Source: a virus. From it: a stretch of 40,482 nt of DNA. The notes under the pieces were generated by a model that ran no database searches, was not told the origin of the DNA, and saw only the letters and a list, made by a program, of their open reading frames with translations. This document shows positions 10,241-34,053 of the stretch, piece after piece; position 1 is the first letter of the stretch; each line of letters starts with the position of its first letter. The stretch covers positions 1-40,482 of IMG/VR virus record IMGVR_UViG_3300009373_000018. One strand, written 5' to 3'. Both the position numbers and the translations under genes were made by a program.

Positions 10241-11059
10241 GTGGATAAGGTAAGGAAACGAATGATTCATTCTTCCATTTGGGAGAGTGATCAATTCGCT
10301 TGTCTTAACGGACGACAGCGATTGACCTATGTCGGTCTGATTTCAATTGCTGACGATGATGGTAGGCTTAAAGGGAATCCGATGCTTCTCAAGAGTAAGA
10401 TATATCCAATGGATGAAGGGATGTCATCGTCCACAATGGAGAAGGATCTTGTTGAGATCGAGAAGGTGGGATTGATAATCCGATATTCGGTAAACGGATC
10501 AGCATATATTCAACATCCAAACTGGTCCATATATCAGAAGATACGAAATGACTTATATGCCCCCTCCAAACTACCCCCTCCCGACGGGTGTAACGAAGAC
10601 GTTACGGAACCGTTACGGAAACGTGACGATACCGTTACTGTAACTAAACTTAACTTAACTAAACATAATATAGATAATGATCAATTTGAACAGCTCTGGA
10701 AAACCTACCCAGGCAAAGCTGAGCAGAAAGGATCTAAAAAGAAGGCCAGGGAGAAACTCCAGGCTAAAACTTATCCCTACACATTTGATGAGACCATGGC
10801 GGCATTCCAGAATTATGGACAATATGCTGAGAACGTGAAAAATGGTTATATCAAACAAGTGACAACATTCCTGAATGGTGACTTTGTTGATATCTGGAAG
10901 GATTTCAATCCAAATATGGAGGAAGATGAACACTCCACAGCCTTAATGGAATGTCCGGAGTGCAAAAATCAAGGAAATAGCAAGATTTGGGAAGTCCCCA
11001 GGACCATTGAGGAACCTAAATGTAAGATCCATCCTGAAATTCTATTGGAGAAAGTATGA
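10241..11059 (+). CDS. Replication initiator / DnaD-like protein
   Basis: A 272-residue protein with a GTG start one base after the previous gene. Residues 1-105 form a winged-helix-type domain (RMIHSSIWESDQFACLNGRQRLTYVGLIS, DDDGRLKGNP, IEKVGLIIRYSVNGSAYIQHPNW), the layout of phage replisome organisers. After a variable linker with a Thr/Val-rich stretch, a second segment (FEQLWKTYPGKAEQKGSKKKA, YIKQVTTFLNGDFVDIW) resembles the DnaD/replication-protein C-terminal module. The last 35 residues carry CPECKNQG, a possible zinc site. It would open or mark the phage origin and recruit host helicase. No iterons were identified in the gene. Confidence 0.75.
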   Translation: MDKVRKRMIHSSIWESDQFACLNGRQRLTYVGLISIADDDGRLKGNPMLLKSKIYPMDEGMSSSTMEKDLVEIEKVGLIIRYSVNGSAYIQHPNWSIYQKIRNDLYAPSKLPPPDGCNEDVTEPLRKRDDTVTVTKLNLTKHNIDNDQFEQLWKTYPGKAEQKGSKKKAREKLQAKTYPYTFDETMAAFQNYGQYAENVKNGYIKQVTTFLNGDFVDIWKDFNPNMEEDEHSTALMECPECKNQGNSKIWEVPRTIEEPKCKIHPEILLEKV

Positions 11060-14815: not shown

Positions 14816-15129
14816 TAGTTATTAAGAGATCAACTAGTGGTGTGTTTTTATATAATGATAATCCTATAAAGGTTGATTTTAAAATTTATTTTATGGATGA
14901 TCATGGTATTTGTGTTTCTCAAACTGAAACAGAATGGAACAGTAGTAATGAAAGTTTTTCCGGTAAATCAGAAGAAGAGACTATTATGATTACAGCCATT
15001 CCTCCTGATATATTGATTAATATGCTAGAGGAAATGATTAAATCTGCAAGATATATTTATGGTGATGCTAAATATGAAGAGTGGTCTCGAGAAGGATGGC
15101 TCACAATAGAAAATGGAGAGAGCAGCTGA
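14812..15129 (+). CDS. Unknown AT-rich early gene
   Basis: A 105-residue protein beginning MIVIKRSTSGVFLYND. Its beta-rich N-terminal half (FKIYFMDDHGICVSQTETEWN) is followed by an amphipathic helix (PDILINMLEEMIKSARYIYG). It is AT-richer than its neighbours, suggesting a different origin. Coupled at both ends: ATGA with the nuclease gene and TGATG with the Mor-like gene. No family is recognised. Confidence 0.65.
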   Translation: MIVIKRSTSGVFLYNDNPIKVDFKIYFMDDHGICVSQTETEWNSSNESFSGKSEEETIMITAIPPDILINMLEEMIKSARYIYGDAKYEEWSREGWLTIENGESS

Positions 15130-15446
15130 TGACAAAGATTTTCAGCTTAATGGAAAACAAAGAGTTCAAGGACGATATTGGTGGGGATCTGACTCCTGAT
15201 GATATGCCGAATGAGGACATGACAATCGTGGCTCTGGAAATGGGAGTAGATGTTGCCATTAAAATGTGTCAAAGTCTCGGAGGGTTAAGTATCTATATTC
15301 CTGGGAATGGATGGAGAGAGATCCGAAAAAGATATATCGAAAAGCATAGGGATGATATGAATACAAAACGAATGGCCATCACACTCGGGACTACAGAGCG
15401 ATGGATTCGTAAGGTATTAAACGATATCAACGCTAATCAATTATGA
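15129..15446 (+). CDS. Mor-like transcription activator
   Basis: A 105-residue protein from the ATG at 15129 (TGATG junction). It matches the Mu Mor/C family: a dimerisation helix (DMTIVALEMGVDVAIKMCQSL), then the hallmark GGLSIYIPGN (residues 51-60), then a C-terminal helix-turn-helix (MAITLGTTERWIRKVL, 82-97). In Mu such proteins bind dyad sites upstream of weak promoters and recruit RNA polymerase. Here it is the last early gene, ideally placed to switch on the structural genes. It overlaps the opposing gpG-like gene by 14 bp at their 3' ends. Best candidate to bind the palindromes at 19864-19922. Confidence 0.82.
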   Translation: MTKIFSLMENKEFKDDIGGDLTPDDMPNEDMTIVALEMGVDVAIKMCQSLGGLSIYIPGNGWREIRKRYIEKHRDDMNTKRMAITLGTTERWIRKVLNDINANQL

Positions 15447-15939
15447 AGTGTAGCATGGTATTTTTTATTCTATCAAGATCTTCATCAGTCAGCTGCAGGA
15501 ATGGTCTGGCAGGAATTTTAAATCCAGGATGGGTAACAGATTTTACTGGATGCTCAGCTCCTGGCCAAAAAAGAGCTTTTTTATTTCGTGGTCTGATAAC
15601 AAAAGGACCGGTCTCTCCCCCAAATTGATGCACAGCTGCATATTCCACATTTGTTCCTACCCTAGCAAAAGTCGCGCCAGATGATGGCGTGATGGATCCG
15701 GCCAATCGGCCGGTTGCCTGTAACATTTTCCCTGTATAGCCTTTTTCTTTTCGATTGGCCAAGGTAGATGGTGCCAGAGCCGGCCATTTAGGGCGACCTT
15801 CCTGCTCGAAATTGGCCTCAACTGCATCCAACATATCTTCTGCAACGGCCCTCATCATTGCTCGTGGATTCTTCGCACGTCGCATGGCCTTTTTGAGAAA
15901 GGCAATTGTTTCCTCATCGTGTATTTCGATGGTGATCAT
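15433..15939 (-). CDS. Mu gpG-like virion morphogenesis protein
   Basis: A 168-residue protein of the phage virion morphogenesis (Mu gpG) family. Signature segments are PRAMMRAVAEDMLDAVEANFEQEG, KWPALAPSTL, LQATGRLAGSI, VGTNVEYAAVHQFG and IPARPFLQL. In Mu this protein takes part in head or tail completion. It is the last gene of the inverted packaging operon. Its stop codon lies inside the Mor-like gene end, so two operons meet with 14 bp of shared sequence and no room for a terminator. Confidence 0.88.
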   Translation of the reverse strand: MITIEIHDEETIAFLKKAMRRAKNPRAMMRAVAEDMLDAVEANFEQEGRPKWPALAPSTLANRKEKGYTGKMLQATGRLAGSITPSSGATFARVGTNVEYAAVHQFGGETGPFVIRPRNKKALFWPGAEHPVKSVTHPGFKIPARPFLQLTDEDLDRIKNTMLHFIID

Positions 15940-16728
15940 CTAAGCCAGTCCTGACTGTGTCAGAATATCTGAATCATAGTCACTGAGATTGGGGGTCCAT
16001 AAAGCCTGGCCGGGATTGTTTGAAAATCCGAGATCAGGAGAAATAAGCTCACCTGTAGATGGATCCTTATAAAATGTTTGCTGGATACCGGTTTCAGGAT
16101 CCGCTTTGGCCTCCATCTTTCCTGTACCCTGTTCAACAGTCAATCCTTTTGATTCCACCTGATCAGCTGTTAAAGCTCTGACACGGCACCGGCATCGATA
16201 TCCATTAGGGGGGTAATGGGTATTCCAAAAGGGATCATCAGCATGAAAAACCTTCTCATGTAATTTCTTATGTTCTGGACGGGCAATATCATCATTAAGA
16301 GAGATATATTGCAAATATGGCCTTAGTTCTTTGTTTTCCTGGAAAGCCTTCCACCGGCCGGCATTATATGAGCTCATCATATTTGTCCGAAAAATTGTAT
16401 TAAGACGCCATGGAGATCCGAGTAGTACCTCTTCTCCCTCTACAAGTCCCTTTCCCCACCATCCATGCTTCTTGAGTGTAGGTTCAAGCTCCTCGCGGAA
16501 TTTATTAAGTGTGAGACCGTCTTTAATGGCAAGGCGGACTTCATTACGGATATCCATCAGAACGTCCATCTGAGTGACTCTGGCTACTGTGAATGCCTGA
16601 TTATGAGCCTCATTCAGCATATCTCTCCAATCCCATGTGATTTTATAGCCTTTAGACTCGAAGTATTTGATAGCGTCCTTTGGTTTTAGTCCAATGACGT
16701 ATGAGAGATTGACCTTACTTGGAGGCAT
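15940..16728 (-). CDS. Mu gpF-like / SPP1 gp7-type minor head protein
   Basis: A 262-residue protein. The central part has the RNTNM-type helix in FRTNMMSSYNAGRWKAF, and near residue 195 the motif PPNGYRCRCRVRAL, the CxC pattern typical of the phage Mu F-like/SPP1 gp7 minor head family. These proteins sit inside or at the portal vertex. It is immediately upstream of the gpG-like gene and overlaps the portal gene by 14 bp, the usual Mu order. It is shorter than Mu gpF because the C-terminal extension is missing. Confidence 0.88.
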   Translation of the reverse strand: MPPSKVNLSYVIGLKPKDAIKYFESKGYKITWDWRDMLNEAHNQAFTVARVTQMDVLMDIRNEVRLAIKDGLTLNKFREELEPTLKKHGWWGKGLVEGEEVLLGSPWRLNTIFRTNMMSSYNAGRWKAFQENKELRPYLQYISLNDDIARPEHKKLHEKVFHADDPFWNTHYPPNGYRCRCRVRALTADQVESKGLTVEQGTGKMEAKADPETGIQQTFYKDPSTGELISPDLGFSNNPGQALWTPNLSDYDSDILTQSGLA

Positions 16729-18151
16729 TTAATTTCCCCCATACTTGAGACACGAAAATTGTCCGAGTGAGCAGCTCCTCCAGATCCTTGGTTTTCATTT
16801 TGGGATATGTCTCAGCCAGTTTTTCCATGACATCATTATAGCTGAGTCCTTTCTGGATCATCTTAGTAACCGGTTTCAACATCATTTCAGCTTGACTCTG
16901 CAGTTCCTTATCTGAGAGCTCTATATTATCCAGGGCTCTCTGGTCTGGCTTCATAGGCCGTCTTGTATATTCAGTAAAACCAGGTTCCCCTCCTGGAGCT
17001 TTGGGAACTACCTCGAGATCCTGTTCCTCTAAACTATAATGTTCCATGTAATATTTCTTGGTGAATTGGACTCCGCTTTCATTTAGGGTCTTATCGCGGT
17101 CCGCTAGGTCCTTTCTGACGCCGCTTTCTTCAAACATTGAGAATTTTGGCAGCTCTGACGCGTCACTATTCCAGTTCAATTCATCAATCCATTGGATCAG
17201 CTGATTAAATGTATCCTCCACAAGCCGCTGATCAGCCAGGGCAATCCATTCCATTACTTGAATACCACTTTGTGATTTGGCATAACTCCCTGTTTCCGTA
17301 ACATCCATGGATACTGCCTGGCCAAGGATAGCCTCACTGATTTCACGATTACTGGAAATAATTTGTGACTCATAAACGTCCACTGTGGATTTACCTTTAA
17401 CTTCCAGGGGCTCAACTGAGGCATTATCCGGAATGGCAGCTACGGCATCGTGGACCATCTTTTCCAGCATATCCATTAAATCATCGATCTCCGGATCGGA
17501 AGCACCTGGTGGATGCTTGCCAAGTAAAAAGGGCATCCCATATTTTTCAATGAATAACATCCGGAATTTCTGACCGCCTTTTTTGAATGCTACCGGCCAG
17601 AAACACTTTGACATGATCCGCTCACCATAAGGATTTTTATAAGTGGCGTTATGTTGAGGATTCAGGAATTTCCGCGGTGGTAGTTCAATGCCCTGGAAAT
17701 TGTCTTTAGGACGGAATTTCAATTGATTTTCCTGACCATAGAGGAACCATTCAACTGGCTTTGCAATGACGGCCTCTGGCAGAATAAGGCTATCAATAAA
17801 ATGCCACATGACCTCTAAGGGTTGGAAGCCGTAAAAGGGGGCATTCAGTATATCACTGATGAGCTTATATACATTAAGCCGTTTGAATAGGTCCTCTATA
17901 ATTTTTGATTTATCAGATTTATCTTTACCGCGATCGATTTCCCATTTCAGCTTTAAAACGCCAGCTTTTCTTGCCGTCACACAAGCGCTTACCCTGGCAT
18001 CGGCCATAATCTCTTTATAAACTGAGATATCTTTACCGGCTTTCCGTAAGACAAAATCCGGATCCGGTAAGATCTGAGAGATAGCGAAATAGTCCATGGA
18101 TCTTGAACGTGTTACGATTTCTTTTGATAAAGATTGGGTTGCTTGGGCCAT
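16715..18151 (-). CDS. Portal protein (DUF935, Mu gp29-like)
   Basis: A 478-residue portal of the DUF935 family, the twelve-subunit ring at the capsid vertex through which DNA is packaged. Family features include ITRSRSMDYF-like N-terminal text, DARVSACVTARKAGVL, GFQPLEVMWH, KPVEWFLY, MPFLLGKHPPGASDPE and SEAILGQAVSMDVTETGS. The C-terminal 60 residues (ELQSQAEMMLKPVTKMIQKG and on) form a long helical tail typical of the family. It lies one base downstream of the large terminase gene. Confidence 0.92.
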   Translation of the reverse strand: MAQATQSLSKEIVTRSRSMDYFAISQILPDPDFVLRKAGKDISVYKEIMADARVSACVTARKAGVLKLKWEIDRGKDKSDKSKIIEDLFKRLNVYKLISDILNAPFYGFQPLEVMWHFIDSLILPEAVIAKPVEWFLYGQENQLKFRPKDNFQGIELPPRKFLNPQHNATYKNPYGERIMSKCFWPVAFKKGGQKFRMLFIEKYGMPFLLGKHPPGASDPEIDDLMDMLEKMVHDAVAAIPDNASVEPLEVKGKSTVDVYESQIISSNREISEAILGQAVSMDVTETGSYAKSQSGIQVMEWIALADQRLVEDTFNQLIQWIDELNWNSDASELPKFSMFEESGVRKDLADRDKTLNESGVQFTKKYYMEHYSLEEQDLEVVPKAPGGEPGFTEYTRRPMKPDQRALDNIELSDKELQSQAEMMLKPVTKMIQKGLSYNDVMEKLAETYPKMKTKDLEELLTRTIFVSQVWGKLNASK

Positions 18152-18152
18152 T

Positions 18153-19418
18153 TTAATAAGTCTCCATTATTTCTTGTGAATGTTTTGCACGTCTGGATCT
18201 AGCAGTTGGAATAGGTGATCCACCACCTTTCATATAAAGTAGGGCCTGTGATGTGGAATCCACCTGATCATTGAATTCCGCTGCAGGGAAATCAGCGCAT
18301 TCATTGATATAATCATTGACCCAGGGAGCATTCTCCGGCAAAGAACAATTACCTGCCTCAATAGTAGGAGTGACAGCATGAACTCTGGCAATTTTATCGC
18401 TGTCCATTTTAAAGGGCTTGATTGGGAGTGAGGTTTCCCTTTGAAGTTCCTGGATTACACTGATACCGCTGGCTTTATCTTCAATTACAATAACATCAGG
18501 TTTATATTTATTGTACATAAAAACCACCTGGCGTTTTAATTCCGGAAATTCTACTCGAGCTCTCCAACAATTAATTAGATAAAAGCCTGTTTTATATTGA
18601 TTCCAGGTAGTGCAAACAGAATAGCTATTCTCATCGCTTTTCTTAAATGCAGTATCCCATGATTGAATTTTCCTTATGGGTCTTTCCAGGGGTAGATCTC
18701 GATAATACTTCCACCAGGCACGTTTAATGATCTCTGCCTCAACATCATCAATGAACTCTCCGCCGATCTCCTGGCGCCTGATTGCCGGGGATACTTCAGA
18801 AACCAGTTCATCAATTTCAAAAGGATCCAGAAATGGATTGTCATAACTCGTGAATTGGAAATCTGTCCAGGTTGTCCTATCCTGTTTTGCTTTCTTGAAC
18901 AGAGTGAAAAAAAGTGCCTCATCGCTTTTGACGCGCTTTCCCTTGGGGGTGCCACCAATGATTCCATTCGCTTTGTAATCCATTAACATAGGTCTCACGG
19001 CATTATACCATATGTATGGATTTTTCAGAACGATACCGGCCTCATTGATAAAGACAAACTTGTATCCGAATCCTTCAATATTCTGAGGTTTCTCAGCACT
19101 TCTGAAATCACACAGAGCATTACCGATAGTGAGCTCCTTTTTTTGTTGGCGCCATTTCCACCATCCTTCCGGTAGAGCTGATAGAGTTGGCATGAAATAT
19201 CTCTCAACATATCGATCACAGTTGGATTGGGTAGTATCTACCCATAAAAGCGGGGAAAACTCTTCCATCATAGCTTCAACGTAGAAATTGGAAACTCCTC
19301 GAGTAAGACCAAAGCGACGTCCTTTTCCTATAACCTTAAACCTGGAATTGCATCCAAAAAGGATATCATTCTGGCCTGGATGATAGCTAATTCTCAGGCG
19401 TTTTCTCAGTGATGACAC
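18153..19418 (-). CDS. terL: Terminase large subunit
   Basis: A 421-residue motor and nuclease. The ATPase part shows an atypical Walker A-like GKGRRFGLT (31-39) and Walker B FVFINEAG (121-128). The RNase H-like nuclease has Asp255 in QSWDTAFK, Glu313-Asp314 in IEDKASG and Asp384/Asp387 in NDQVDSTSQAL. The sequence is of the Mu gp28-like type, shorter than Mu's own protein. Start is GTG (19418), inside the small terminase gene (32-bp overlap). It is inverted relative to the capsid gene. Confidence 0.92.
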   Translation of the reverse strand: MSSLRKRLRISYHPGQNDILFGCNSRFKVIGKGRRFGLTRGVSNFYVEAMMEEFSPLLWVDTTQSNCDRYVERYFMPTLSALPEGWWKWRQQKKELTIGNALCDFRSAEKPQNIEGFGYKFVFINEAGIVLKNPYIWYNAVRPMLMDYKANGIIGGTPKGKRVKSDEALFFTLFKKAKQDRTTWTDFQFTSYDNPFLDPFEIDELVSEVSPAIRRQEIGGEFIDDVEAEIIKRAWWKYYRDLPLERPIRKIQSWDTAFKKSDENSYSVCTTWNQYKTGFYLINCWRARVEFPELKRQVVFMYNKYKPDVIVIEDKASGISVIQELQRETSLPIKPFKMDSDKIARVHAVTPTIEAGNCSLPENAPWVNDYINECADFPAAEFNDQVDSTSQALLYMKGGGSPIPTARSRRAKHSQEIMETY

Positions 19419-19821
19419 GTTCTATCTCGATCTTGAGGGTCTGCTCATCACCTGTGGGCTCATCGGAGAGCAGACGTCTTAATTTGACAAGTCTATCCAG
19501 ATCCATTGTGGAATCGATATCGATTTTTTTCTTCTTTAGCCTCTTATCATACAGATCAAGTGATTCTTTGATAAGTTTCAGTTCTCGCTGCTTCATTTCC
19601 TCAAGGGCATCTTTGGCCATGAGGTGGAAGTCAGCCAGATCCTCCAGCTCCCTCGCTCGGATCCGTTTTTTCCAATTGTAGCGGGAACTCCATTTCTTGA
19701 TAGTAGAGAGAGACCGTTTGAACTTTTGGGCAACCTTTTTGAGTGTCCGTTTTTCATAGAGCAGATAGTAAAACTCAAAGGCTTTTTTCTGCAGCTCTGT
19801 TTCTCTAGGAAAGTATGCCAT
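19387..19821 (-). CDS. terS: Terminase small subunit (helix-turn-helix)
   Basis: A 144-residue DNA-binding protein. Residues 25-55 form a helix-turn-helix (RTLKKVAQKFKRSLSTIKKWSSRYNWKKRI), the YNW-type pattern found in small terminases, then a charged helical oligomerisation region. It should recognise the packaging site. The overlap with the large terminase gene is 32 bp. The ATG at 19821 has no good ribosome-binding site; the frame is closed upstream so no earlier start exists. The five tandem palindromes begin 43 bp before it. Confidence 0.82.
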   Translation of the reverse strand: MAYFPRETELQKKAFEFYYLLYEKRTLKKVAQKFKRSLSTIKKWSSRYNWKKRIRARELEDLADFHLMAKDALEEMKQRELKLIKESLDLYDKRLKKKKIDIDSTMDLDRLVKLRRLLSDEPTGDEQTLKIEIERVITEKTPEN

Positions 19822-19863
19822 GTGACATTGTCAAGTTTATCCATAAGTAGCGTCTTTTTTTCT

Positions 19864-19922
19864 GGAACGGTTCCCGGAACTGTTCACTGAACCGTTCCTG
19901 GAATGATTCCATGAATGGTTCC
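19864..19922. promoter_or_regulatory. Five tandem 11-bp palindromes, 12-bp period
   Basis: GGAACGGTTCC (19864), GGAACTGTTCA (19876), TGAACCGTTCC (19888), GGAATGATTCC (19900) and TGAATGGTTCC (19912) share the consensus GGAAYNRTTCC and are spaced exactly 12 bp. They lie in the divergent region between terS (minus) and the protease gene (plus). The obvious uses are a cooperative operator for the Mor-like activator, or a small-terminase binding (pac) site beside terS. The sequence alone cannot decide between them. Confidence 0.8.
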
Positions 19923-19941: not shown

Positions 19942-19947
19942 TATAGT
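19942..19947 (+). promoter_or_regulatory. Possible rightward late promoter -10
   Basis: TATAGT lies 20 bp after the last palindrome and no TTGACA-like -35 stands 16-18 bp before it (TTCCAC is there instead). An activator-dependent promoter with the operator replacing the -35 would look like this, as at Mu Pm. A start near 19954 would give a leader of about 100 nt before the protease gene. Confidence 0.4.
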
Positions 19948-20023
19948 AAACTTTCACTGCACATGTTCTCATACCATCACCCTGTTTCCAGCATTGTCCT
20001 AAAAAGGCTCCCTGTAGTCGCGA

Positions 20024-20042: not shown

Positions 20043-20056
20043 ACATAAGGATTCTC

Positions 20057-21427
20057 ATGTGGATTGAAGTTTTTAAGACAGGAACTCACACGGATTCAGC
20101 TGGCAATACCAAGAAATGGACCTCTGAGGATCTGGATACGATTGCCACCAAATACAATAACCAGGATAAGGATAAGAAACATGATGCTCCAGCTGTAATC
20201 GGCCATCCGAAAACAGATTCACCGGCTTATGGATGGGTAAAAAACCTGAAAAGAAAAGGTGAAATCCTGTTGGCTGATGTTAAACCTACTGTGGATGAGT
20301 TCAAAGATTGGGTTAATAAAAAGATCTACAATAAAGTTTCCATTGCTCTATTTAAGGACAATCTTTTACGGCACGTGGGTTTTCTCGGGGGGGCAGCGCC
20401 GGCTGTGAAGGGATTGAAGGCCGCCAAGTTCGGTGAAGAGGAGGATTATATAGAGATTGAATTCATGGACCTGGAAACAGCCATGAATTTCCGTGGATTG
20501 GCCAGATCTCTTCGTGGAGTTCGGGAATGGATCATTGAGAAAGCCGGTAAAGAAAAAGCTGATGAGATCCTACCCAATTATGATTTAGATCGTCTATCCA
20601 GGGCGAAGAGTGATGATAACCGGCCAAGATATAATGATCCCTCAGAGGATCCAGGATTTGTCGATGACAAGGAATATGCTACCCTGGACCAGGTTGAGGT
20701 AGGTAATCCTTATCCCAATGAACATGCAGCCAGAGTAAAGAATCCAGATGATTTTCAAGAGAATAGTTTCCGGAGAAAAAAGATCAAGACGTCCCAAAAT
20801 AGTATATCGATGATCATTGGTCGATTAAAGGATAAGACCACTACCACCACACAAGCATATCGATTTCCCAGAGATTTATATACGGTTGATGAGGCCAAGA
20901 AGTGGCTCAAAGATCATAACTTAAAGTATTTATCTTTTGAACCTGCTACAAAATCAAAGGAGCATAGTGCAATGACCCCAGAAGAAGTAAAAAAGCTCGA
21001 GGATGAGAAGAAAGCTTTGAAAACAAAAATTTCCACGATGGAGCAGGAAAAAGTGCGTGAGAAAATCACGTCTTTTACGGATAAGCTCATCGAGGATGGA
21101 TGCAAACTAACGCCAGCTCAAAGGAATGAGCAGATCGAATTCCAAATGGTTCTAGCCGGTGTAGGGGAAATAGAATTTTCTGACAACGGCAATCCGGAGC
21201 AAAAGGAAAAGAAATCCGCTCTGGAAACTTATCAGGAGTTCCTGAAAAAACTTCCACGCCAGGTAGAGTTTAAGGAGATTGCCAAGGGGGGGAAACAGAA
21301 AGCGGATCAAACAAATTCTCAGGCTGTGGCTGATAAAGCGCTGGAGTATAAGGACAAGATGGATAAAAAGGGTCGGGCCATTTCTTACACGGAAGCCGTT
21401 GCTCACGTAGTTAATCAAGAGGATTAA
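20057..21427 (+). CDS. Head maturation protease with scaffold domain (Mu I-like)
   Basis: A 456-residue protein from the ATG at 20057 (AAGGA 6 bases upstream). An earlier in-frame ATG at 20024 lies inside a palindrome and lacks a site. Residues 1-140 match the Mu I-type protease (FKTGTHTDSAGNTKKWT, PAVIGHPKTDSPAYGWV, YNKVSIALF, HVGFLGGAAPAVKGL). A middle segment (NPYPNEHAARVKNPDDF, TTQAYRFPRDLYTVDEAKKWL) resembles XkdF-like phage modules. The last 130 residues, beginning MTPEEVKKLEDE, are coiled coil, the expected scaffold. First gene of the rightward late operon. Confidence 0.83.
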   Translation: MWIEVFKTGTHTDSAGNTKKWTSEDLDTIATKYNNQDKDKKHDAPAVIGHPKTDSPAYGWVKNLKRKGEILLADVKPTVDEFKDWVNKKIYNKVSIALFKDNLLRHVGFLGGAAPAVKGLKAAKFGEEEDYIEIEFMDLETAMNFRGLARSLRGVREWIIEKAGKEKADEILPNYDLDRLSRAKSDDNRPRYNDPSEDPGFVDDKEYATLDQVEVGNPYPNEHAARVKNPDDFQENSFRRKKIKTSQNSISMIIGRLKDKTTTTTQAYRFPRDLYTVDEAKKWLKDHNLKYLSFEPATKSKEHSAMTPEEVKKLEDEKKALKTKISTMEQEKVREKITSFTDKLIEDGCKLTPAQRNEQIEFQMVLAGVGEIEFSDNGNPEQKEKKSALETYQEFLKKLPRQVEFKEIAKGGKQKADQTNSQAVADKALEYKDKMDKKGRAISYTEAVAHVVNQED

Positions 21428-21476
21428 GTTTTTTAAATAGCCGCTTCACCAAAACATATAAAAAGGAGTTCTAGAA

Positions 21477-22217
21477 ATGTATCAGAATCCAATTTTGACA
21501 AAAACATTTGACGCAGCCGGAGCAATCACCAAGTATCGTATTGCTAAGATGTCCACGGATATCGCTGTTGTTGTGGCTGCAGCCGCGACGGATAAGCTTA
21601 TTGGTGTTAACGGCGCCATAACCCTGGCTAGTGGAGATAGGGGCGATGTCTACACCCATGGGATCGTAGAGGTCGAATATGGTGGAAATGTAACTCGTGG
21701 GGATCTACTCACCTCTGATTCCAGTGGTAGGGCCATTGCAGTTACCCTGGCGTTATTAAATACGGGCCGCTGTTCTATTCTTGGTCGCGCTTTGGTGAGC
21801 GGTGTTGTAGGGGATATCGGATGCGTGGATTTGTCTATCGGCGAATCCAGTATGACCAAAAAGATTGCTGGCGCCACCATGGTAGTGGGATCCGAATCAT
21901 CGAATACCATCAATGTGACAATCCAATTAACTGATCAGAATGGCGATGATCTGGCTGTCAGGGCATCTGTATTAGCCTATTTGTCTGATGATGCGAATGG
22001 GGATTCGATCGCGGCTACCGCTCCAGATGGAGGATGGGCTATTGGAACTGATGGATTGCTCATTCCTGTTGTTGCCAGTAAAGCGGCTCAATTGGTTTCT
22101 GAGTCTGATGGCGATATCGACGTAACCATTACTGAGTCCGGAGCTGATACTTGGTATCTCATTGTCTTACTACCAGATGGCACGTTAGTTGCTTCTGGCG
22201 CAATCACATTTGCCTAA
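21477..22217 (+). CDS. Capsid decoration protein (DUF2190-like plus Ig-like domain)
   Basis: A 246-residue protein. The N-terminal 125 residues (FDAAGAITKYRIAKM, TDKLIGVNGAITLASGDRG, YGGNVTRGDLLTSDSSGRA) match the DUF2190-type decoration fold that stabilises capsids. Residues 135-246 (INVTIQLTDQNGDDLAVRASVLAYLSDD and WYLIVLLPDGTLVASGAITFA) form an Ig-like domain of the kind displayed on phage surfaces. RBS AAAGGAG is strong. Position just before the capsid gene supports this role. Ig domains often bind sugars weakly, so adhesion to host or mucus surfaces is possible. Confidence 0.82.
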   Translation: MYQNPILTKTFDAAGAITKYRIAKMSTDIAVVVAAAATDKLIGVNGAITLASGDRGDVYTHGIVEVEYGGNVTRGDLLTSDSSGRAIAVTLALLNTGRCSILGRALVSGVVGDIGCVDLSIGESSMTKKIAGATMVVGSESSNTINVTIQLTDQNGDDLAVRASVLAYLSDDANGDSIAATAPDGGWAIGTDGLLIPVVASKAAQLVSESDGDIDVTITESGADTWYLIVLLPDGTLVASGAITFA

Positions 22218-22279
22218 TAGTGAGGGGCATTAATAAAGCCTAATCACGGTATAATAACATATTGAAGGAGATTTGAAAA

Positions 22280-23218
22280 ATGCGAGAATTCGCCTTACAA
22301 CCTTTTCCATCTGATCCTGAGCTGCTCGCAATAGCGATCGCTTATAAAAACGCCAGGTTTATTGCCGATCAGGTGATGCCTCGAGTCCCTGTTCCCAAAC
22401 AGGAGTTTAAATACTGGACCTGGCCAAAGGGAGAATATTTCACCATTCCTAAGACGTTGGTAGGCCGTAAAGGCCAACCTAACAAGGTGGAATTCTCTGC
22501 CACGGAAGCCACGGCCTCTTGTTTAGGATATGGCCTGGCTGATGACATTCCCAATGATGATCTGGAAAACGCTCCGGACAATTTCAACATCATTGGCCAT
22601 GCAGTTGAGAGCATTGCGGATTTAGTGGCTCTGGATCGTGAAAAACGCGTTGCGGATCTCGTATTTGCAGCTGGTCAATATGCTTCCGGAAACAAGACTC
22701 AGCTATCTGGGACCAGTCAGTGGAGCGATTATACCAATTCAACGCCGATCATTGATATTTCGACCGGCCTGGATGCCTGTATCATGAGACCAAATGTGAT
22801 GGTCATTGGCCGTCTTGCTTGGTCAAAACTTGCTGGTCATCCGGATATCATGAAAGCTGTAAACCGAACGGCCGGAGACACCGGTATTGCGCGGCGCCAG
22901 GATGTTGCAGCTCTCTTTGAGCTTGAGGAGATCCTGGTAGGTGAGGCTTTTTATAATACAGCCAAAAAAGGTCAGACTGTTTCTCTGTCACGTTTATGGG
23001 GTAAACACGCTTCATTGATTCTCCGCGATCAACTGGCCGACACACGTGGCCGGATCACCTTTGGATATACTGCTCAATGGGGATCCAAAGTGGCTCGACA
23101 GGATCCGGATAAAAATATCGGCCTCAGAGGTGGAGTAACAGTTGTTAGTGGTGAATATGTTAAAGAGGCCATCACAGCCAATGATATGGGATATTTTGTC
23201 CAAGACGCTGTTGCCTAA
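22280..23218 (+). CDS. Major capsid protein
   Basis: A 312-residue protein with the layout of HK97-fold capsids of Mu-like hybrid phages: LQPFPSDPELLAIAIAYKN, IADQVMPRVPVPKQEF near the N-terminus, then the helix of NIIGHAVESIADLVALDRE, PNVMVIGRLAWSKLAGHPD in the P domain, and WGSKVARQDPDKNIGLRGG near the end. It lies after protease/scaffold and decoration genes, before the head-completion genes. RBS GAAGGAG is good. GATC occurs twelve times in 22301-23220, about three times the chance rate. Confidence 0.9.
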   Translation: MREFALQPFPSDPELLAIAIAYKNARFIADQVMPRVPVPKQEFKYWTWPKGEYFTIPKTLVGRKGQPNKVEFSATEATASCLGYGLADDIPNDDLENAPDNFNIIGHAVESIADLVALDREKRVADLVFAAGQYASGNKTQLSGTSQWSDYTNSTPIIDISTGLDACIMRPNVMVIGRLAWSKLAGHPDIMKAVNRTAGDTGIARRQDVAALFELEEILVGEAFYNTAKKGQTVSLSRLWGKHASLILRDQLADTRGRITFGYTAQWGSKVARQDPDKNIGLRGGVTVVSGEYVKEAITANDMGYFVQDAVA

Positions 23219-23239
23219 TCTTGAAAGGAGAAATATAGG

Positions 23240-23611
23240 ATGCCAAGATATAAGGTCAAATCGCCATTAAAGCATGATGGTAAGATCTATGAAGTTGGAG
23301 TTGAGACTGATCTTCCTGCAGATGTGGGGAAATACCTTGTAAGCTGTGGAACCGTTGAGAGAGTTACCTCTAAATCGAAACCGGAAACAGAGCCAGAAAC
23401 GGTATCAGAGGAGAGTCTGGAGCCTCAGCCTGAGCCGGAGACAGAAACCGAGGAAAGTGATCATTCAGATTACGTTCTGGATTATGGGAAACACGAAGGG
23501 AAACGGCTTTCGGAGCTTGATGATAAGTATTTAAGGTACCTGTCCAGGTCTGGTAAAACTGAAGAGTTAATGGCTATGGCAAAAGCGGAGCTCGCGTCCA
23601 GAACTGAATAA
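23240..23611 (+). CDS. Head-region protein with DUF3820-like C-terminal domain
   Basis: A 123-residue two-part protein. Residues 1-40 (YKVKSPLKHDGKIYEVG, DLPADVGKYLVSCGTVERV) resemble a small module common downstream of phage capsid genes. An acidic Glu/Pro/Thr-rich linker (45-75) follows. Residues 78-115 (DYVLDYGKHEGKRLSELDDKYLRYLSR) match the DUF3820 fold (YGKYKGxxLxEL-P-DYLxWL), more often found in nuclease C-termini. A repeated fusion to a head protein would be unusual. Role probably in head completion; nucleic-acid binding by the C-terminal part is possible. Confidence 0.7.
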   Translation: MPRYKVKSPLKHDGKIYEVGVETDLPADVGKYLVSCGTVERVTSKSKPETEPETVSEESLEPQPEPETETEESDHSDYVLDYGKHEGKRLSELDDKYLRYLSRSGKTEELMAMAKAELASRTE

Positions 23612-23617
23612 TGAGAG

Positions 23618-24082
23618 ATGTCATATTGCACGGAAGCGGATATCAAAAGTCTTTTAATTCCAGAGACTATCCTGGCTCAATTAACCGATGATTCAGCCGG
23701 AACAACAGTTGACTCCGCTAAGGTTACCGATGCCATCACCAAAGCCGATGCTTTAATCGATGGATCTCTGAGATATAAGTACTCCGGCGAACTTCCACTC
23801 TCTCCCATCCCTGAACTTATCGAATCCCTTTCAATTGCTATTGCCGCATACTATCTGTACCGCCGGCGCCATGATCATGAAGGGATTCCGGAACCAATTA
23901 CTGAGGGATATAAAGATGCCAAGGAAACTCTGAAATTAATCAGAAAAGGAGAACTGGATCCTGGTATCCTGGCAGCCGGCACGAATGTTGGCCAGAGCTA
24001 TAGAACCAATAAAGTGGCTGCTGATCGAATTTTTGATGAGGATAAAATGGACAATTTTTACAGTGGCCCTGATACAGACTAA
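23618..24082 (+). CDS. Head-tail connector protein (DUF1320, Mu gp36-like)
   Basis: A 154-residue protein beginning MSYCTEADIKSLLIPETILAQL, then AKVTDAITKADALIDGSLRYKYS and PELIESLSIAIAAYYLYRRRHDHEGIPE. These are the family hallmarks of DUF1320 connector proteins, which attach to the portal. A single ATG overlap with the next gene shows translational coupling. Confidence 0.88.
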   Translation: MSYCTEADIKSLLIPETILAQLTDDSAGTTVDSAKVTDAITKADALIDGSLRYKYSGELPLSPIPELIESLSIAIAAYYLYRRRHDHEGIPEPITEGYKDAKETLKLIRKGELDPGILAAGTNVGQSYRTNKVAADRIFDEDKMDNFYSGPDTD

Positions 24083-24498
24083 TGACGGTAAAAGATATTG
24101 AAGACTCTATTGTCACAAAACTTTCGACAGATATCACCGATTGGAGGGTGGAACGCTGTCCTGAAGAACCTGAGAAATATGAATTTGTACATCCTAAAGG
24201 TGCGATCTTAGTTGCGTATGAGGGTAGTGAATATGAAGATCCGAAAGCTAATGCTCCAACAGCGATTAAACAGAATCGGACAATTACTATCGCCCTTCGA
24301 CTTATTCATAAGAATCTTTTCATACATCATGGAATATATTCAAAACTTGATGAAATCAAAACGTCCCTCACAGGTCATCAGGTGGATCCTGGATATAGTA
24401 AGATGTATCCAGTCAGCGATTCTTTTTTGGCTAAGACTGAAGGATGTTGGCATTGGATTTTCATTTGGGCCTTTGACGGCGAGGAATTCAATGAATAA
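24082..24498 (+). CDS. Mu gp37-like tail terminator/neck protein
   Basis: A 138-residue protein with the gp37 family pattern: KDIEDSIVTKLSTDITDWRVERCPEEPEKY, GAILVAYEGSEYEDP, then TITIALRLIHKNL and LAKTEGCWHWIFIWAFDGEEF. These proteins end the tail tube or join it to the head. The gene overlaps the connector gene by one base and precedes the tail-tube paralogues. Confidence 0.82.
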   Translation: MTVKDIEDSIVTKLSTDITDWRVERCPEEPEKYEFVHPKGAILVAYEGSEYEDPKANAPTAIKQNRTITIALRLIHKNLFIHHGIYSKLDEIKTSLTGHQVDPGYSKMYPVSDSFLAKTEGCWHWIFIWAFDGEEFNE

Positions 24499-24513
24499 CA
24501 AGGAGTTTTTATT

Positions 24514-24930
24514 ATGAGTATTACTCGTACAAAAGTTATGTATGGGCCTTTCAATCTAACTATGACTGGCGGGACAGGATTTTCTATTAGTGGTTTAATG
24601 AAAGACAGGGTTGTAATGAATGCGGAGATGAAGAGGGGAAATAGAGTCCTGGAGGATGCCACGGAACAGAATTGGGAAGCAGGACGGGTTATGACTTTGG
24701 AAATTACCATTGATGAAGTCAATACAGCCGATCTGGCCCTTATCGAAGCCTGCACAGCTTTAACAATCTTATTCACCAAGCCGAATAAAACTCTCACAGT
24801 CGCAGCTGCAGTAGCAGACACATCAACTCTGGCTATTTTCGCCGATGTCGTAGATGGAAAAACGAAAATCACAGTTATTAAGACTGCAAAGATCGGTTCG
24901 GCGTGGACTGATGTATTTACATATGCCTAA
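24514..24930 (+). CDS. Tail-tube-like protein 1
   Basis: A 138-residue beta-rich protein: MSITRTKVMYGPFNLTMTGG, EMKRGNRVLEDATEQNWEAGRVMTLEITI and ALTILFTKPNKTLTV. It is paralogous to the next gene (shared xxKVxYGPFxL, GxRxLxD-xxxxWEEGR-xxxEIT and TKxxKTxTI). Position after the neck proteins and an all-beta look suggest a tail tube subunit. RBS AAGGAG. I do not recognise a named family. Confidence 0.62.
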   Translation: MSITRTKVMYGPFNLTMTGGTGFSISGLMKDRVVMNAEMKRGNRVLEDATEQNWEAGRVMTLEITIDEVNTADLALIEACTALTILFTKPNKTLTVAAAVADTSTLAIFADVVDGKTKITVIKTAKIGSAWTDVFTYA

Positions 24931-24946
24931 TTAAGGAGATTTTGAT

Positions 24947-25372
24947 ATGGGACTTACAGCATCAAAAGTTCTTTATGGACCATTTGATTTGGACTGCCTA
25001 GTTGCCGGTACTCCGGATGTTAGTCAGTATGCACGAACCGGATTAAAGGAGGATTCCGTTGCCTTCAATGGTGAAACATTTGAAGGTGAGGAAAGATTGG
25101 GTGATGGATCCAAAGTCTATTGGGAAGAAGGTCGTGAGTTGGTGATTGAAATAACACTATCAGAATTGGATCCCACAGCTACTACTGGAGATCTCAAAAA
25201 GATCGAGGATGCCGATAAGATCACCCTGGCTTTCACTAAATCTAGTAAGACCATTACGATTACGGATCTTGATAATATCATTGCCAGCATCGATGGTCTC
25301 AAGACCAAGATTATTGCTAAAAAGTCTAAGCCGTTGGCCGATGAATGGTCATCCATTTTTAGTATAGCGTAA
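24947..25372 (+). CDS. Tail-tube-like protein 2 (paralogue)
   Basis: A 141-residue protein with the same layout as its upstream neighbour: GLTASKVLYGPFDLDC, EGEERLGDGSKVYWEEGRELVIEITLSEL, ITLAFTKSSKTITI. An insertion (PDVSQYARTG) sits near residue 25. The pair probably arose by tandem duplication; one copy may form the tube and the other a cap or decoration. RBS AAGGAG is good. Confidence 0.62.
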   Translation: MGLTASKVLYGPFDLDCLVAGTPDVSQYARTGLKEDSVAFNGETFEGEERLGDGSKVYWEEGRELVIEITLSELDPTATTGDLKKIEDADKITLAFTKSSKTITITDLDNIIASIDGLKTKIIAKKSKPLADEWSSIFSIA

Positions 25373-25382
25373 GGGGGCGGAC

Positions 25383-25556
25383 ATGAGTAAAAAGAAACTT
25401 GTGAAAATGGTGAAACCAGATGGCTCAAGGATCTTGGTGCATCCAGAGGATGTGGATCATCGCAAAACACTCGGATGGAAGATTTGGGAGGATTGGAAAA
25501 AAGAACAGGCGGAAAAGAAAGGCTCGAATGAAGGAAAAGATAAAAAAACATCTTGA
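25383..25556 (+). CDS. 57-residue basic protein
   Basis: A short gene, MSKKKLVKMVKPDGSRILVHP to EGKDKKTS, with GGGGGCG four bases before the ATG. The PDGSRILVHPEDVDHRKTLGWK stretch resembles small phage proteins found near tail or lysis genes. Its end overlaps the membrane-protein gene by 29 bases. Function unknown. Confidence 0.6.
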   Translation: MSKKKLVKMVKPDGSRILVHPEDVDHRKTLGWKIWEDWKKEQAEKKGSNEGKDKKTS

Positions 25557-25866
25557 AAATCCACTCTCGCGCCTTTTGTGGCAAGCCATAGTGATCATAT
25601 TCATGGCCGGTGTCATTTGGGCTACCATGACGGGTCGGATTACGAGAAACAGTGATGATCTACAGATCCATAATGGTGACACTACAGTCCACATGAACCT
25701 AGAAGAAAAGCAAGACTTCATATTGACTAAGGAGAGATCTAAAAGGAATGAAACAGCGATTGAGAAACTCCAGGGAGAGATGAAACAGGAGATCAAGGAA
25801 GTTCGCCAGGAACTCCGATATGGATTTGAGGACCTCAAGGATTTCATTAAAAATGGAGGAAACTAA
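25528..25866 (+). CDS. Membrane-anchored coiled-coil protein, possible lysis accessory
   Basis: About 112 residues from the ATG at 25528; the longer frame starting at 25420 lies over the previous gene and lacks a good site. It has one transmembrane helix (residues 14-34, LLWQAIVIIFMAGVIWATMTG) followed by a long heptad helix (EKQDFILTKERSKRNETAIEKLQGEMKQEIKEVRQELR). The topology resembles an inner-membrane spanin or holin accessory, and a holin-like gene follows three bases later. No lipoprotein partner was found. Confidence 0.6.
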   Translation: MKEKIKKHLENPLSRLLWQAIVIIFMAGVIWATMTGRITRNSDDLQIHNGDTTVHMNLEEKQDFILTKERSKRNETAIEKLQGEMKQEIKEVRQELRYGFEDLKDFIKNGGN

Positions 25867-25869
25867 GAC

Positions 25870-26100
25870 ATGGTAAAACTTATCAACAACTTAGTTGGAT
25901 TGTTTGTGGGCGAAAACAGCAAAAAACGTCAGATTGGGATATTCCTGGCGTTTCTATTCTCTGGCCTATACTGGGCTGATGTGATCACACTTGAGTTATA
26001 TGAAGCGATCATACCCTTTGTGATTCTATGGACGGGGGCTGCATTCAGCGCTAGGCTCACCAAGTTGAGCAATACTGTAAAACAGGCCAAAAGACTTTGA
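25870..26100 (+). CDS. Holin-like protein
   Basis: A 76-residue protein with two hydrophobic segments (about 22-38, IGIFLAFLFSGLYWADV, and 44-60, AIIPFVILWTGAAFSAR), a polar N-terminus and a basic C-terminus (QAKRL). Small size and two segments fit a class II-type holin. It sits with the membrane-anchored coiled-coil gene and upstream of the M15 lysin (33081), which is separated by 7 kb of tail-fibre genes. Confidence 0.68.
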   Translation: MVKLINNLVGLFVGENSKKRQIGIFLAFLFSGLYWADVITLELYEAIIPFVILWTGAAFSARLTKLSNTVKQAKRL

Positions 26101-26117
26101 TAAGATGAAGATAAAGG

Positions 26118-28676
26118 ATGGCGGACAAATACACTTCAATATACGATGGTCCGGAGATTGATTCCAGGCTCGGAGAAGGAAAGACATCTTATGATGAGAC
26201 TGTTCAATTTCGTGGTGATGTAGCTCCAAGTAATTCCCCTGTTTATTCCTCCATATCTAGCGTTATCCAGGACGACGGATCCGCGAAAATCACAATCCAG
26301 TGGACCTACACGCAGGGAACCAATAAGGCGCACGGATTCATAGTCCGGTATTCGCACGGATCTGCCTCCGGTCAAACCGTCAATTCTGCCTCCGCCGGGG
26401 AGAAGCGGGATTCCACAACAAGAAAATTCGAGATCATTATTCCGTCTCATCACTATATCTCGCTTGGTGTCTCAGCCTATTATTCCTCGAGGCTTAAGAC
26501 AATTGAGACATCCATAATAACACATACCAATTGGACTGATTATCAGCCTTTTTCGCTCATAAGATTTGGTTCTGATGTAAAGATATTCGGCAAAAATGAC
26601 GATCTTGGGACTATCCATGATAATCAGTTCGAGTCTAAGGAAGAACTCATTGAAGCGGGAATTGAAGGTTTTCTTGCGACATTCTCCAATGAAGACAATG
26701 AGAGTCGGAATGGATCAAACATAGGAAATGATACACGTAATGATGCAAAGGCAAAGGAAGCCCACACTGGAACATCTAAGTATCGTCAGGAATTTGCCCC
26801 TGATCCACCGACAAATTATCAAGCAGGATCAGTCACGGTCAATGATGATCAGAGTATAAACATTCCGTTAACTTGGGATCTCCCAGAGGATAAAATTGAT
26901 GGCTTCACATTCCGTTATGCGGTTGGTGCTGATGATACCGTTGTGATAGACGAAAATAGTCCTACGCTCAAATTATCCGCGCATCAAACAGGACACGTTT
27001 TAGAGGGTATTTGTGAAGGCAAATATATTAAGACTTCACTCAAAGCCTATATCACCACAAATCTCGGACTTCTCTATTCATCTGCTGTAACTGTTAATAT
27101 AGACAGGACCGCAGAAAGCGTAGAATTTGGCGAGACTACACTTCCAGCTAATACATTGATGGAAACCGGGGGTCTTATCAAAAGAAGAGATGCGGGCGGA
27201 ATAGACGCGGATGCGTTACCTGAAAGCGCAACAAAGAAATGGGCAAGCGAAACAGGAGCAGACATTACTGGTGATCATACGGCGGATGATACGTCCAAAG
27301 TATCGGGGAGAGCTGCGGGGACTGTAAAAGATGAAGCAATCGCCGGTAAAGCAGCAAAGGATAAGATCGATGCTGATGTTGGTGCAAACACATTAGAAGA
27401 TACAATAGGATCACAAGCTAAAGTTGATGCTCGTTTATCGTCAACAGAGAAAACAAGGCTCAACAATGGTATGAGTCCAGACAATCTAAAGAATTTGGAG
27501 AATGCAGACGTAAGCATTAACGCAAATGGCACTTTAACGGGAGCTGGTGGTGGTCAAGTGACACCTGCGGGAATAGGCGCAGAAACGCCCGCAGGGGCAC
27601 AAAGCAAAGTGGATACACGTCTTAGTTCAACAGAAAAGACGCGTCTTAATAACGGCATGAGCCCTGATAACTTGAAAAATCTTGAGAACGCAGACGTTTC
27701 CATCAATGCCAACGGAACATTATCAGGCGCGGGGGGAGGACAAGTTACACCAGGGGGAATTGGGGCTGAAACACCTTCTGGGGCACAAACAAAGGTAGAC
27801 ACCAGGTTATCTTCAGCAGAAAAAACCAATCTTGACAATGGTTATAATCCATCAGGAGCAAAAAATCTTGAAAATGCTGACATTCTTGTTTCAGATGGTG
27901 AACTAGACGATGTTTTTGACAAAGAGGGAGATCAATATCAAGTTAAATCTGATGTAGGTGTGCAGAGCAAAATTCAAACAATGAAGCAGATAAATGATCG
28001 TGGATTTGAATCTCGAGAAGAGCTTGACGAAGCCAGCCAGGAGGGATTTATGGTCACGTTTGCTGGTGAGAGGAACGGAGCGAAGGCAGGATCTAATATC
28101 GGACACGTACCCGAGAAGATCGAGTCCCAGGACGTAAGAATTGGCCCGTCTAAGACCATAAAGGACGTCATCGGAGTCAAGCCCGTAAAAAGAGGGTCTG
28201 CCCTTTCACGAATATGCGGGTTGTTGAGCGGTGCTGGAATTGGGGATGCCGTAAAACAGAACATTATCTGGGTTCACAGTTCCGTCGCTACCGGGTATGG
28301 ACAGGAAGCGAGCGTTGCAACCATTTCCGAAAATGCGTCCACTTATAAAAATAAGGTCCGAGCACCCTACTTCCACGACGACGACAATAAAAAATTGACA
28401 TTACAGGTATTCGTCTACTTGGAGGACTCGTCCGACACCGCAACGATAAAACTTGAACTTTACGAAATAAGCTCTGGAAGTCCGTCTCTGCTTACATCAG
28501 ACGAAGGAAGCGTTACCGGTCAGAGCTGGACGTTAACAAGACTGAGCATAGAGTTGACCCCAGGGTTAGAAATGACTACGCAAAAAACGTATGAACTGCG
28601 GATTTACTTAAAAATTAGTGGAGTAGAGTGGGTCTCACTCTATTACAGTGTGATCTTTGCTGAGGGTAGTGAATAG
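26118..28676 (+). CDS. Large tail-fibre protein with internal repeats
   Basis: An 852-residue fibre. It starts MADKYTSIYDGPEIDSRLG, then has two Fn3-like beta segments (ITIQWTYTQGTNKAHGFIVRYSHG and IPLTWDLPEDKIDGFTFRYAVG). The central part carries a 60-residue repeat with RLSSTEKTRLNNGMSPDNL, ENADVSINANGTL and GAGGGQV, seen in two almost identical copies and one degenerate copy (about residues 435-600). The C-terminal 150 residues (VKQNIIWVHSSVATGYG onward) form a new beta domain, perhaps receptor-binding. The two good repeats differ at most synonymous sites. Confidence 0.75.
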   Translation: MADKYTSIYDGPEIDSRLGEGKTSYDETVQFRGDVAPSNSPVYSSISSVIQDDGSAKITIQWTYTQGTNKAHGFIVRYSHGSASGQTVNSASAGEKRDSTTRKFEIIIPSHHYISLGVSAYYSSRLKTIETSIITHTNWTDYQPFSLIRFGSDVKIFGKNDDLGTIHDNQFESKEELIEAGIEGFLATFSNEDNESRNGSNIGNDTRNDAKAKEAHTGTSKYRQEFAPDPPTNYQAGSVTVNDDQSINIPLTWDLPEDKIDGFTFRYAVGADDTVVIDENSPTLKLSAHQTGHVLEGICEGKYIKTSLKAYITTNLGLLYSSAVTVNIDRTAESVEFGETTLPANTLMETGGLIKRRDAGGIDADALPESATKKWASETGADITGDHTADDTSKVSGRAAGTVKDEAIAGKAAKDKIDADVGANTLEDTIGSQAKVDARLSSTEKTRLNNGMSPDNLKNLENADVSINANGTLTGAGGGQVTPAGIGAETPAGAQSKVDTRLSSTEKTRLNNGMSPDNLKNLENADVSINANGTLSGAGGGQVTPGGIGAETPSGAQTKVDTRLSSAEKTNLDNGYNPSGAKNLENADILVSDGELDDVFDKEGDQYQVKSDVGVQSKIQTMKQINDRGFESREELDEASQEGFMVTFAGERNGAKAGSNIGHVPEKIESQDVRIGPSKTIKDVIGVKPVKRGSALSRICGLLSGAGIGDAVKQNIIWVHSSVATGYGQEASVATISENASTYKNKVRAPYFHDDDNKKLTLQVFVYLEDSSDTATIKLELYEISSGSPSLLTSDEGSVTGQSWTLTRLSIELTPGLEMTTQKTYELRIYLKISGVEWVSLYYSVIFAEGSE

Positions 28677-28678
28677 AC

Positions 28679-29446
28679 ATGTCTTTTGAGAGATATTCTA
28701 AAACTATGGGCAACAACTCTAAGGATCTTTTACCGTTTCACGGGCAGAGTTTCAATAAGGGAGTGGGTGGTCAGACTGCCGCCCTGATCCGTCAGGCGGG
28801 GAAACAATTATACATTCCCCAGGATGACTCACTTGTGGGAGCATGGCTCTTTGATGAAGGTAAAGGATTGTTTACGAGGGATCATAGTATTTATAGGAAT
28901 CATGGAACGATTGTTGGTGCAGATTGGGTGGCTGATGGATTGGATTTTGTAGATACAAATAGTGATTATATTAATGTTGATGGGTTTGTTACAGAATCAC
29001 AATATCTAACTGTGAGTGTATGGTTGGCGAGCACACAGTCTGGAATCAATAATCTTCTTGTAGATGGTAATCCTGTTAGATTTATATGTGGGTGGAATAC
29101 AACTACTTCGGGCACGCTCGGTTTATATAGTGGCGGGTGGAAAGAATTTGGTGCCGCACCGAATGATGGTCTATGGCATCACATAATTTGGATGGCAGAT
29201 TATGACAAGGCAAGAATGTATGTTGATGGTTCTTTAGTTGGTACGGAACAGCAAATGACTCCGATTGATTTGAAGTCTGCTACCCAATTTAAAATTGGTT
29301 CAGCTTACGCTGGGGACGAATATTACTTTGATGGTATTATTCATTCCGTCTTTATCTACAACCGAGCCCTCGCCGCCGAAGAAATATCCAATATCTACAA
29401 TGCTGGAATGTATTTAACTCAAGAACATTTGGAGTATGAGATATGA
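28679..29446 (+). CDS. LamG-domain tail protein 1
   Basis: A 255-residue protein. After a 50-residue leader (FERYSKTMGNNSKDLLPFHGQ), one concanavalin A-like/LamG domain spans about 55-240: LVGAWLFDEGKG, LDFVDTNSDYINVDGF, WHHIIWMADYDKARMYVDGSLVG, FKIGSAYAGDEYYFDGII and ALAAEEISNIYNAG. These domains bind carbohydrates and often sit on phage tails. Two bases after the large fibre; likely an adhesin acting on the host surface. Confidence 0.8.
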   Translation: MSFERYSKTMGNNSKDLLPFHGQSFNKGVGGQTAALIRQAGKQLYIPQDDSLVGAWLFDEGKGLFTRDHSIYRNHGTIVGADWVADGLDFVDTNSDYINVDGFVTESQYLTVSVWLASTQSGINNLLVDGNPVRFICGWNTTTSGTLGLYSGGWKEFGAAPNDGLWHHIIWMADYDKARMYVDGSLVGTEQQMTPIDLKSATQFKIGSAYAGDEYYFDGIIHSVFIYNRALAAEEISNIYNAGMYLTQEHLEYEI

Positions 29447-31161: not shown

Positions 31162-31163
31162 TC

Positions 31164-33079: not shown

Positions 33080-33080
33080 G

Positions 33081-33913: not shown

Positions 33914-33915
33914 CA

Positions 33916-34053
33916 ATGGTTATCTATAATTTGACTGGTGATTTAGCTCAATATGATAAGATCAAGAACATGCCTATCGAGATAGTATATGAATGGCTGG
34001 AGGTTGCTCTGAGAGAGCAAGACGTCAGAAAAAGGATAAAAATCAGTGGCTAA
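33916..34053 (+). CDS. Tail chaperone frameshift extension (or 45-residue gene)
   Basis: From an ATG at 33916 the frame reads 45 residues (MVIYNLTGDLAQYDKIKNMP to KRIKISG). The same frame is open upstream to at least 33811 without a stop, so it can be the C-terminal part of a -1 fusion of about 190 residues with the chaperone. The ATG has only a weak ribosome-binding site. It ends inside the tape-measure gene start. Fusion is the more likely expression. Confidence 0.6.
   Translation: MVIYNLTGDLAQYDKIKNMPIEIVYEWLEVALREQDVRKRIKISG

Follow-up and report, generated by a model that had tools for sequence, protein, structure and literature searches.

Five tandem dyads between the divergent late operons of a viral contig: a probable bidirectional operator for a Mor-family activator

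Introduction

Five palindromes stand in tandem between the two late operons of the viral contig analysed here, and their position raises the question of which protein they serve and for what function. The whole stretch of DNA (40,482 nucleotides, hereafter the window) is a 40.5-kb record that encodes a tyrosine integrase, an S24 repressor, a CII-like protein and a replication initiator. A first-pass annotation, made from the sequence alone, had read the palindromes as an operator for a Mor-like activator of late genes, with a packaging (pac) site as the rival explanation. According to our analysis, the array is a real and conserved element that very probably has a function. Sequence comparison further makes it likely that it is a single late control element, namely a bidirectional operator/promoter for a Mor-family activator. 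A literature search found such an array described nowhere.

Results and discussion

Genomic context of the array

The gap with the array is the only one from which both late operons diverge, and the gene map confirms that it separates a packaging operon (terminase to portal) from a head-tail operon (protease and capsid), as had been annotated (Table 1). The small terminase gene lies 43 bp from the array, and the start of the head protease is preceded by AAGGA. The Mor-like protein, annotated as the product of the last early gene, was borne out by a match to PF08765 over the cut-off (E 9e-8), with a likely start of the gene at 15129.

Table 1. Coordinates of the features discussed, numbered from the first letter of the window.
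Feature	Position	Strand	Remarks
Array of five GAAYNRTTC dyads	19864-19922		12-bp period; homologues in L002 and L023
Candidate -10 TAAACT, protease-capsid operon	19947-19952	+	32.5 bp from outermost dyad centre 19917
Candidate -10 TAAACT, terminase-portal operon	19834-19839	-	32.5 bp from dyad centre 19869
Alternative -10 TATAGT	19942-19947	+	5/6 match
Mor-family activator (PF08765)	15081-15446	+	last early gene; proposed binder
Left late operon	15433-19821	-	small terminase to G-like
Small terminase	19387-19821	-	left late operon; has helix-turn-helix
Large terminase	18153-19418	-	left late operon
Mu-type portal	16715-18151	-	left late operon
F-like	15940-16728	-	left late operon
G-like	15433-15939	-	left late operon
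Right late operon	20057-40012	+	head protease (start 20057), scaffold, major capsid protein, downstream plus-strand genes including tail

The units of the array, GGAACGGTTCC (at 19864), GGAACTGTTCA (19876), TGAACCGTTCC (19888), GGAATGATTCC (19900) and TGAATGGTTCC (19912), follow each other in exact 12-bp steps, with dyad centres at 19869, 19881, 19893, 19905 and 19917. The five palindromes and their period were thereby confirmed, with all 45 positions of the inner 9-mer GAAYNRTTC fitting across the five units, while the next-best five-in-a-row elsewhere in the window reaches 32 of 45. The longer form GGAAYNRTTCC, which the annotation had given for every unit, is complete in two of them and carries one mismatch in the remaining three. 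The tandem palindromy of the array amounts to 21 of 25 pairs; among 200 whole-window simulations with a Markov-1 model the top value was 20, attained once. The junctions between the units are also dyads, so that the array can be described as ten 6-bp half-sites, alternately inverted. Seven further GAAYNRTTC sites are scattered over the window, and none of them is flanked, even on one side, by a -10-like TANNNT hexamer 32.5 or 33.5 bp away. An RNA hairpin in the array (z -3.1) was rejected as its function and is regarded as a by-product of the palindromes.

Relatives carrying the dyad in the same gap

In order to compare the array among related phages, several searches were combined. The array is near-identical in L002, and a search for homologues of the small terminase returned one near-identical contig, together with psiM2 and psiM100, which are without the site. 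A scan for GAANNNTTC in three copies with a 12-bp period yielded about 80 unrelated loci and L023, which shows the divergent layout of the window and has three dyads at 12 bp that are near-identical in sequence to those of the window. The N-terminus of its protease is 62% identical to that of the window.

Further divergent relatives were sought by the protease N-terminus, in viral contigs and in genomes. The gap of L215, a Thermodesulfovibrio contig, holds a single 25-bp perfect palindrome, AATCTTTTGAACTGTTCAAAAGATT, with the core dyad of the window, that of L214 one long palindrome that shares this core, CTACTGAATGGTTCATTAG, and that of L198 two dyad variants 24 bp apart. In addition, Mor proteins were aligned and viral contigs were searched by Mor, the gap being inspected afterwards. 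This search gave L251 as the sole new record with the full layout, and its predicted gap holds the palindrome ATACTCCTGAACGGTTCAGGAGCAT. Within the phylum to which L215 belongs, 395 genomes were also searched for Mor homologues, and of the loci examined L303 and L304 have the full divergent layout. A search for the dyad only in the 395 genomes gave hits at background level (17 genomes), which overlapped with Mor solely in L215's own genome. The dyads have CTNNTGAAYNRTTCANNAG in common, and independent relatives carry 1, 2, 3 or 5 copies of the core dyad per gap.

Three other divergent relatives have short gap repeats of other sequence. These are CGACTGAGTCGA (12 bp) in L188 (4930-4953), AATGTRGTATACT (13 bp) in L186 (4907-4937) and TATGCA-type repeats (11-12 bp) in L192 (4540-4690). 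The two-sided -10 spacing described below is absent from all three, for which reason they were rejected as support, and the repeats perhaps serve another regulator.

The head protease (20054-21427) deserves a separate remark. Only its residues 218-306 match other viral contigs (L174-L183, 44-65% identity), and since the protease of L023 is without this stretch, it looks like a movable insert.

A two-sided spacing of the -10 hexamers

On both sides of the array, a TAAACT hexamer stands at the same distance from the nearest end dyad (Table 1), the minus-strand hexamer being an exact mirror copy of the plus-strand one across the array. The first-pass annotation had proposed a promoter without a -35, which agrees with our inspection: CGTCAT (plus) and a run of A (minus) occupy the positions 17 bp upstream of TAAACT. 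It had placed the -10 at TATAGT, downstream of the array. This hexamer is indeed present, overlaps TAAACT on the plus strand and matches the -10 better, but its role is questionable, and the geometry that is conserved is that of TAAACT. The distance of TATAGT is 27.5 bp to the centre of the last dyad and 33.5 bp to the last of the junction dyads.

For the statistics, offsets of 18.5-51.5 bp from the outermost dyad centre were evaluated at eight dyad-bearing loci. TANNNT is found at 32.5 or 33.5 bp on 15 of the 16 sides, and at most once at each other offset. Seven of the eight loci have it on both sides, all at 32.5 or 33.5 bp, and at the remaining 32 offsets tested it is two-sided in none of the eight; the eighth locus has GATAAT and TAAAAT at 33.5 bp. 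When the flanks are shuffled, the window by itself gives a probability of 0.0024.

Because the rule was first noticed on part of these eight loci, its independent support comes from a reverse search of the viral collection, from L303 and L304, both of which fit the rule, and from a sequence-blind scan. The reverse search covered 2.9 million viral contigs, with the spacing in the grammar set to 32.5 bp. It gave six matches, L251 among them, all of which lie in the late gap between terminase-side genes and the protease; by our own estimate, which assumes roughly 60-90 billion bases, about 0.2-0.3 chance matches are expected. The sequence-blind scan looked for a palindrome with symmetric TANNNT in 16 divergent gaps. 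It chose exactly the GAAYNRTTC-like dyad in L251, L215, L214, L198, L303 and L304, and nothing in the nine divergent gaps without the dyad. The dyad centre of L304 had first been chosen by eye, and the scan then gave the same centre. A strict version over 218 kb made six calls, five in the late gap and one stray. The window was called only with the 9-bp core, because its outer dyads are without the extended symmetry of 19-25 bp, and L023 was uncalled because one of its two -10 hexamers begins with G.

The minus-strand -10 is close to the start of the small terminase (19821-19839), and the small-terminase mRNA of the window is predicted to be nearly leaderless. The same prediction, leaderless or nearly so, is made for the protease mRNA of L023 (promoter to start, 2435-2449). 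Shine-Dalgarno sequences are weak or missing at both genes, which fits the prediction.

The Mor-family protein as candidate binder

The Mor-family protein of the window also matches the profile of Mu Mor (1rr7, E 1e-4), and its predicted structure was too weak for use (mean pLDDT 61). All ORFs of the window were compared with the dyad-bearing loci, the early regions of some records being covered in part. Among the non-structural proteins, Mor alone had a relative in each of the five loci L198, L251, L303, L304 and L215, although the Mor of the window is only about 30% identical to that of the relatives. Small terminase, repressor, CII and initiator were not common to the loci compared. L215 and L198 encode a small Mor beside G, and Mor was found in two further contigs that had been retrieved by the operator, the longer ones of the six. 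It was not found in the L214 genome; L023, L255, L257 and L259 are fragments without Mor. From this distribution we infer that a Mor-family protein binds the dyads. The annotated Mor-like operator in the divergent late region is therefore well supported by the comparison as regards the conserved dyad, the fixed two-sided -10 and the shared Mor, with the binding itself predicted from sequence.

Alternative explanations

If the array were a pac site, the small terminase would bind the dyads and packaging would start there. Its location directly upstream of the small terminase gene, whose product has a helix-turn-helix, is that of pac sites, and pac commonly involves repeated sites in the neighbourhood of this gene. 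Unlike a pac site, the array is kept when the terminase is replaced: L023 retains it beside small and large terminase genes unrelated to those of the window, with a methylase gene between them and the array, so that linkage to a cognate small terminase is lost. In L215, L198, L251 and L254-L257 the dyad is found mid-gap although the operon begins with a gene other than the small terminase, and the closest characterised small terminases, those of psiM2 and psiM100, have no such site nearby. The dyad is also present in transposable phages, namely L251, L303, L304 and L198, each with a gene for a Mu-type transposase, and in Mu-type phages packaging begins at the left genome end. These observations disfavour the rival named by the first-pass annotation, and we consider it very unlikely.

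Replication iterons, with the initiator binding the array as an origin, are highly improbable to a similar degree. The array has the same period as the tandem 12-bp GAANNNTTC iterons and a similar unit, with those of L079 resembling the window's closely. Such arrays sit inside the replication-initiator genes of many unrelated phages, whereas the array of the window is in another gene context, 9 kb from an initiator gene (10241-11059) whose own 11-bp repeats differ from the array and adjoin an AT-rich stretch. Among the dyad-bearing loci compared, several of which encode a Mu-type transposase, no relative of this initiator was found, and iterons leave the fixed two-sided -10 spacing unexplained. 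Somewhat less improbable, yet still unlikely, is an operator through which another regulator, such as the CII-like protein, the S24-type repressor or a host factor, would repress or activate the late genes. Any dimeric regulator could use such dyads and the window encodes S24 and CP76/CII-like proteins; neither of these was found in the compared dyad-bearing relatives, whereas Mor was, and a dyad about 42 bp upstream of the start suits an activator that replaces the -35. We give almost no credence to a coding repeat, in which the array would encode a short E-x-F-x peptide (12 bp being four codons) and the palindromes would be a by-product. In L023 a 17-codon ORF with a Shine-Dalgarno sequence (2469-2522) runs through the array and spells MSSESFRERFSERFTRN, and the window has a similar frame. 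However, the eight units use the codons GAA and TTC only, never GAG or TTT, the bases on either side of the centre are complementary in seven of the eight, and the relatives with a single dyad could not encode the repeat.

Two observations on replication genes stand apart from these considerations. Within the initiator gene of the window (PHROG replication initiation protein), GTTAC-type repeats with an 11-bp period (10590-10643) are followed by the AT-rich stretch, and this region is likely a lambda-O-like origin. In L037, L039, L044, L054, L067, L079, L027 and L030, 12-bp GAANNNTTC arrays are located within replication-initiator or primosomal genes or at their edge, possibly representing a common iteron type of unrelated phages.

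Proposed mechanism and significance

Returning to the Mor-dependent operator/promoter, we posit that Mor-like dimers would occupy the two ends of the array. Each dimer, located about 42-43 bp upstream of a start site, would stand in for the -35 and recruit the host sigma-70 RNA polymerase to the TAAACT on its side; a -10 centre 32.5 bp off puts the dyad at about -42. One promoter would serve the genes from small terminase to G, the other those for protease, capsid and tail. In most relatives, a single dyad would serve both promoters. In the window (five dyads), L023 (three) and L198 (two), the end dyads would be separated, each with its own -10 at unchanged distance. We further infer that Mor activates both divergent late promoters and that the role of the inner dyads is probably to raise affinity or cooperativity, or to let both polymerases load together.

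The annotation had also suggested that five dimers could line up along one face of the helix, with 12 bp as about one turn. This part did not hold. As 12 bp correspond to about 410 degrees of B-DNA, adjacent dyads are turned by about 50 degrees and are off one face. Occupation of adjacent dyads by Mor dimers is also unlikely, because the published footprint of Mu Mor (-56 to -36) covers about 21 bp; by analogy, alternate dyads, at the 24 bp seen in L198, could be filled. The distance between the end dyads is 0, 24 or 48 bp in every case, the cases being too few for a rule. A doubtful extension, which we mention tentatively, is a late switch with adjustable operator length, where 12-bp expansion would split a shared switch into two and the inner dyads would serve cooperative assembly. 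In that event, the two divergent promoters of a single dyad must compete for polymerase, and end dyads at the above separations, each retaining its -10, would give two independent switches.

The earlier reading of the array as a Mor operator was thus correct in its main lines, with errors in some details. What follows from it is a testable operator/promoter grammar, CTNNTGAAYNRTTCANNAG with TANNNT 32.5 bp off each side, which finds late promoters of uncultured Mu-headed phages by sequence alone. It applies to a clade of Mor activators for which a search of about 50,000 GenBank phage records gave no match. The natural series of operators with 1, 2, 3 and 5 copies can moreover be used to probe tandem operators at divergent promoters.

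Comparison with phage Mu

At the Mu middle promoter Pm, the Mor dyad is centred at -43.5, and the promoter has a -10 but lacks a -35, which Mor replaces (PMC4390567, PMC4287176). The window resembles Pm and Mor, and the related C protein and late promoters, in that a Mor-family protein is encoded and a later gene class would be controlled. The dyad lies about 42-43 bp upstream of the predicted start, a -10 is on hand and a convincing -35 is absent. The distance from dyad to -10 centre, about 34 bp in Pm, is 32.5 bp on both sides in the window and 32.5-33.5 bp over the eight loci. The operator itself differs. That of Mu Mor has 16 bp, with two 5-bp inverted repeats and a 6-bp G/C-rich spacer (PMC4390567), whereas here the 5-bp repeats are 1 bp apart and form an 11-bp dyad, which is extended to 19-25 bp in relatives. 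Unlike Pm, one element would serve two divergent promoters and is expanded to five tandem copies, and unlike Mu, this phage has a tyrosine integrase instead of a transposase. Divergent promoters by an activator site are also known from the Mu mom region, where two of them adjoin the C-protein site (PMC4287176). There the activator moves polymerase between the promoters, whereas here the geometry is the same on both sides and both promoters would lead to late genes. We therefore regard the element as a putative new operator variant of the Mor/C activator kind.
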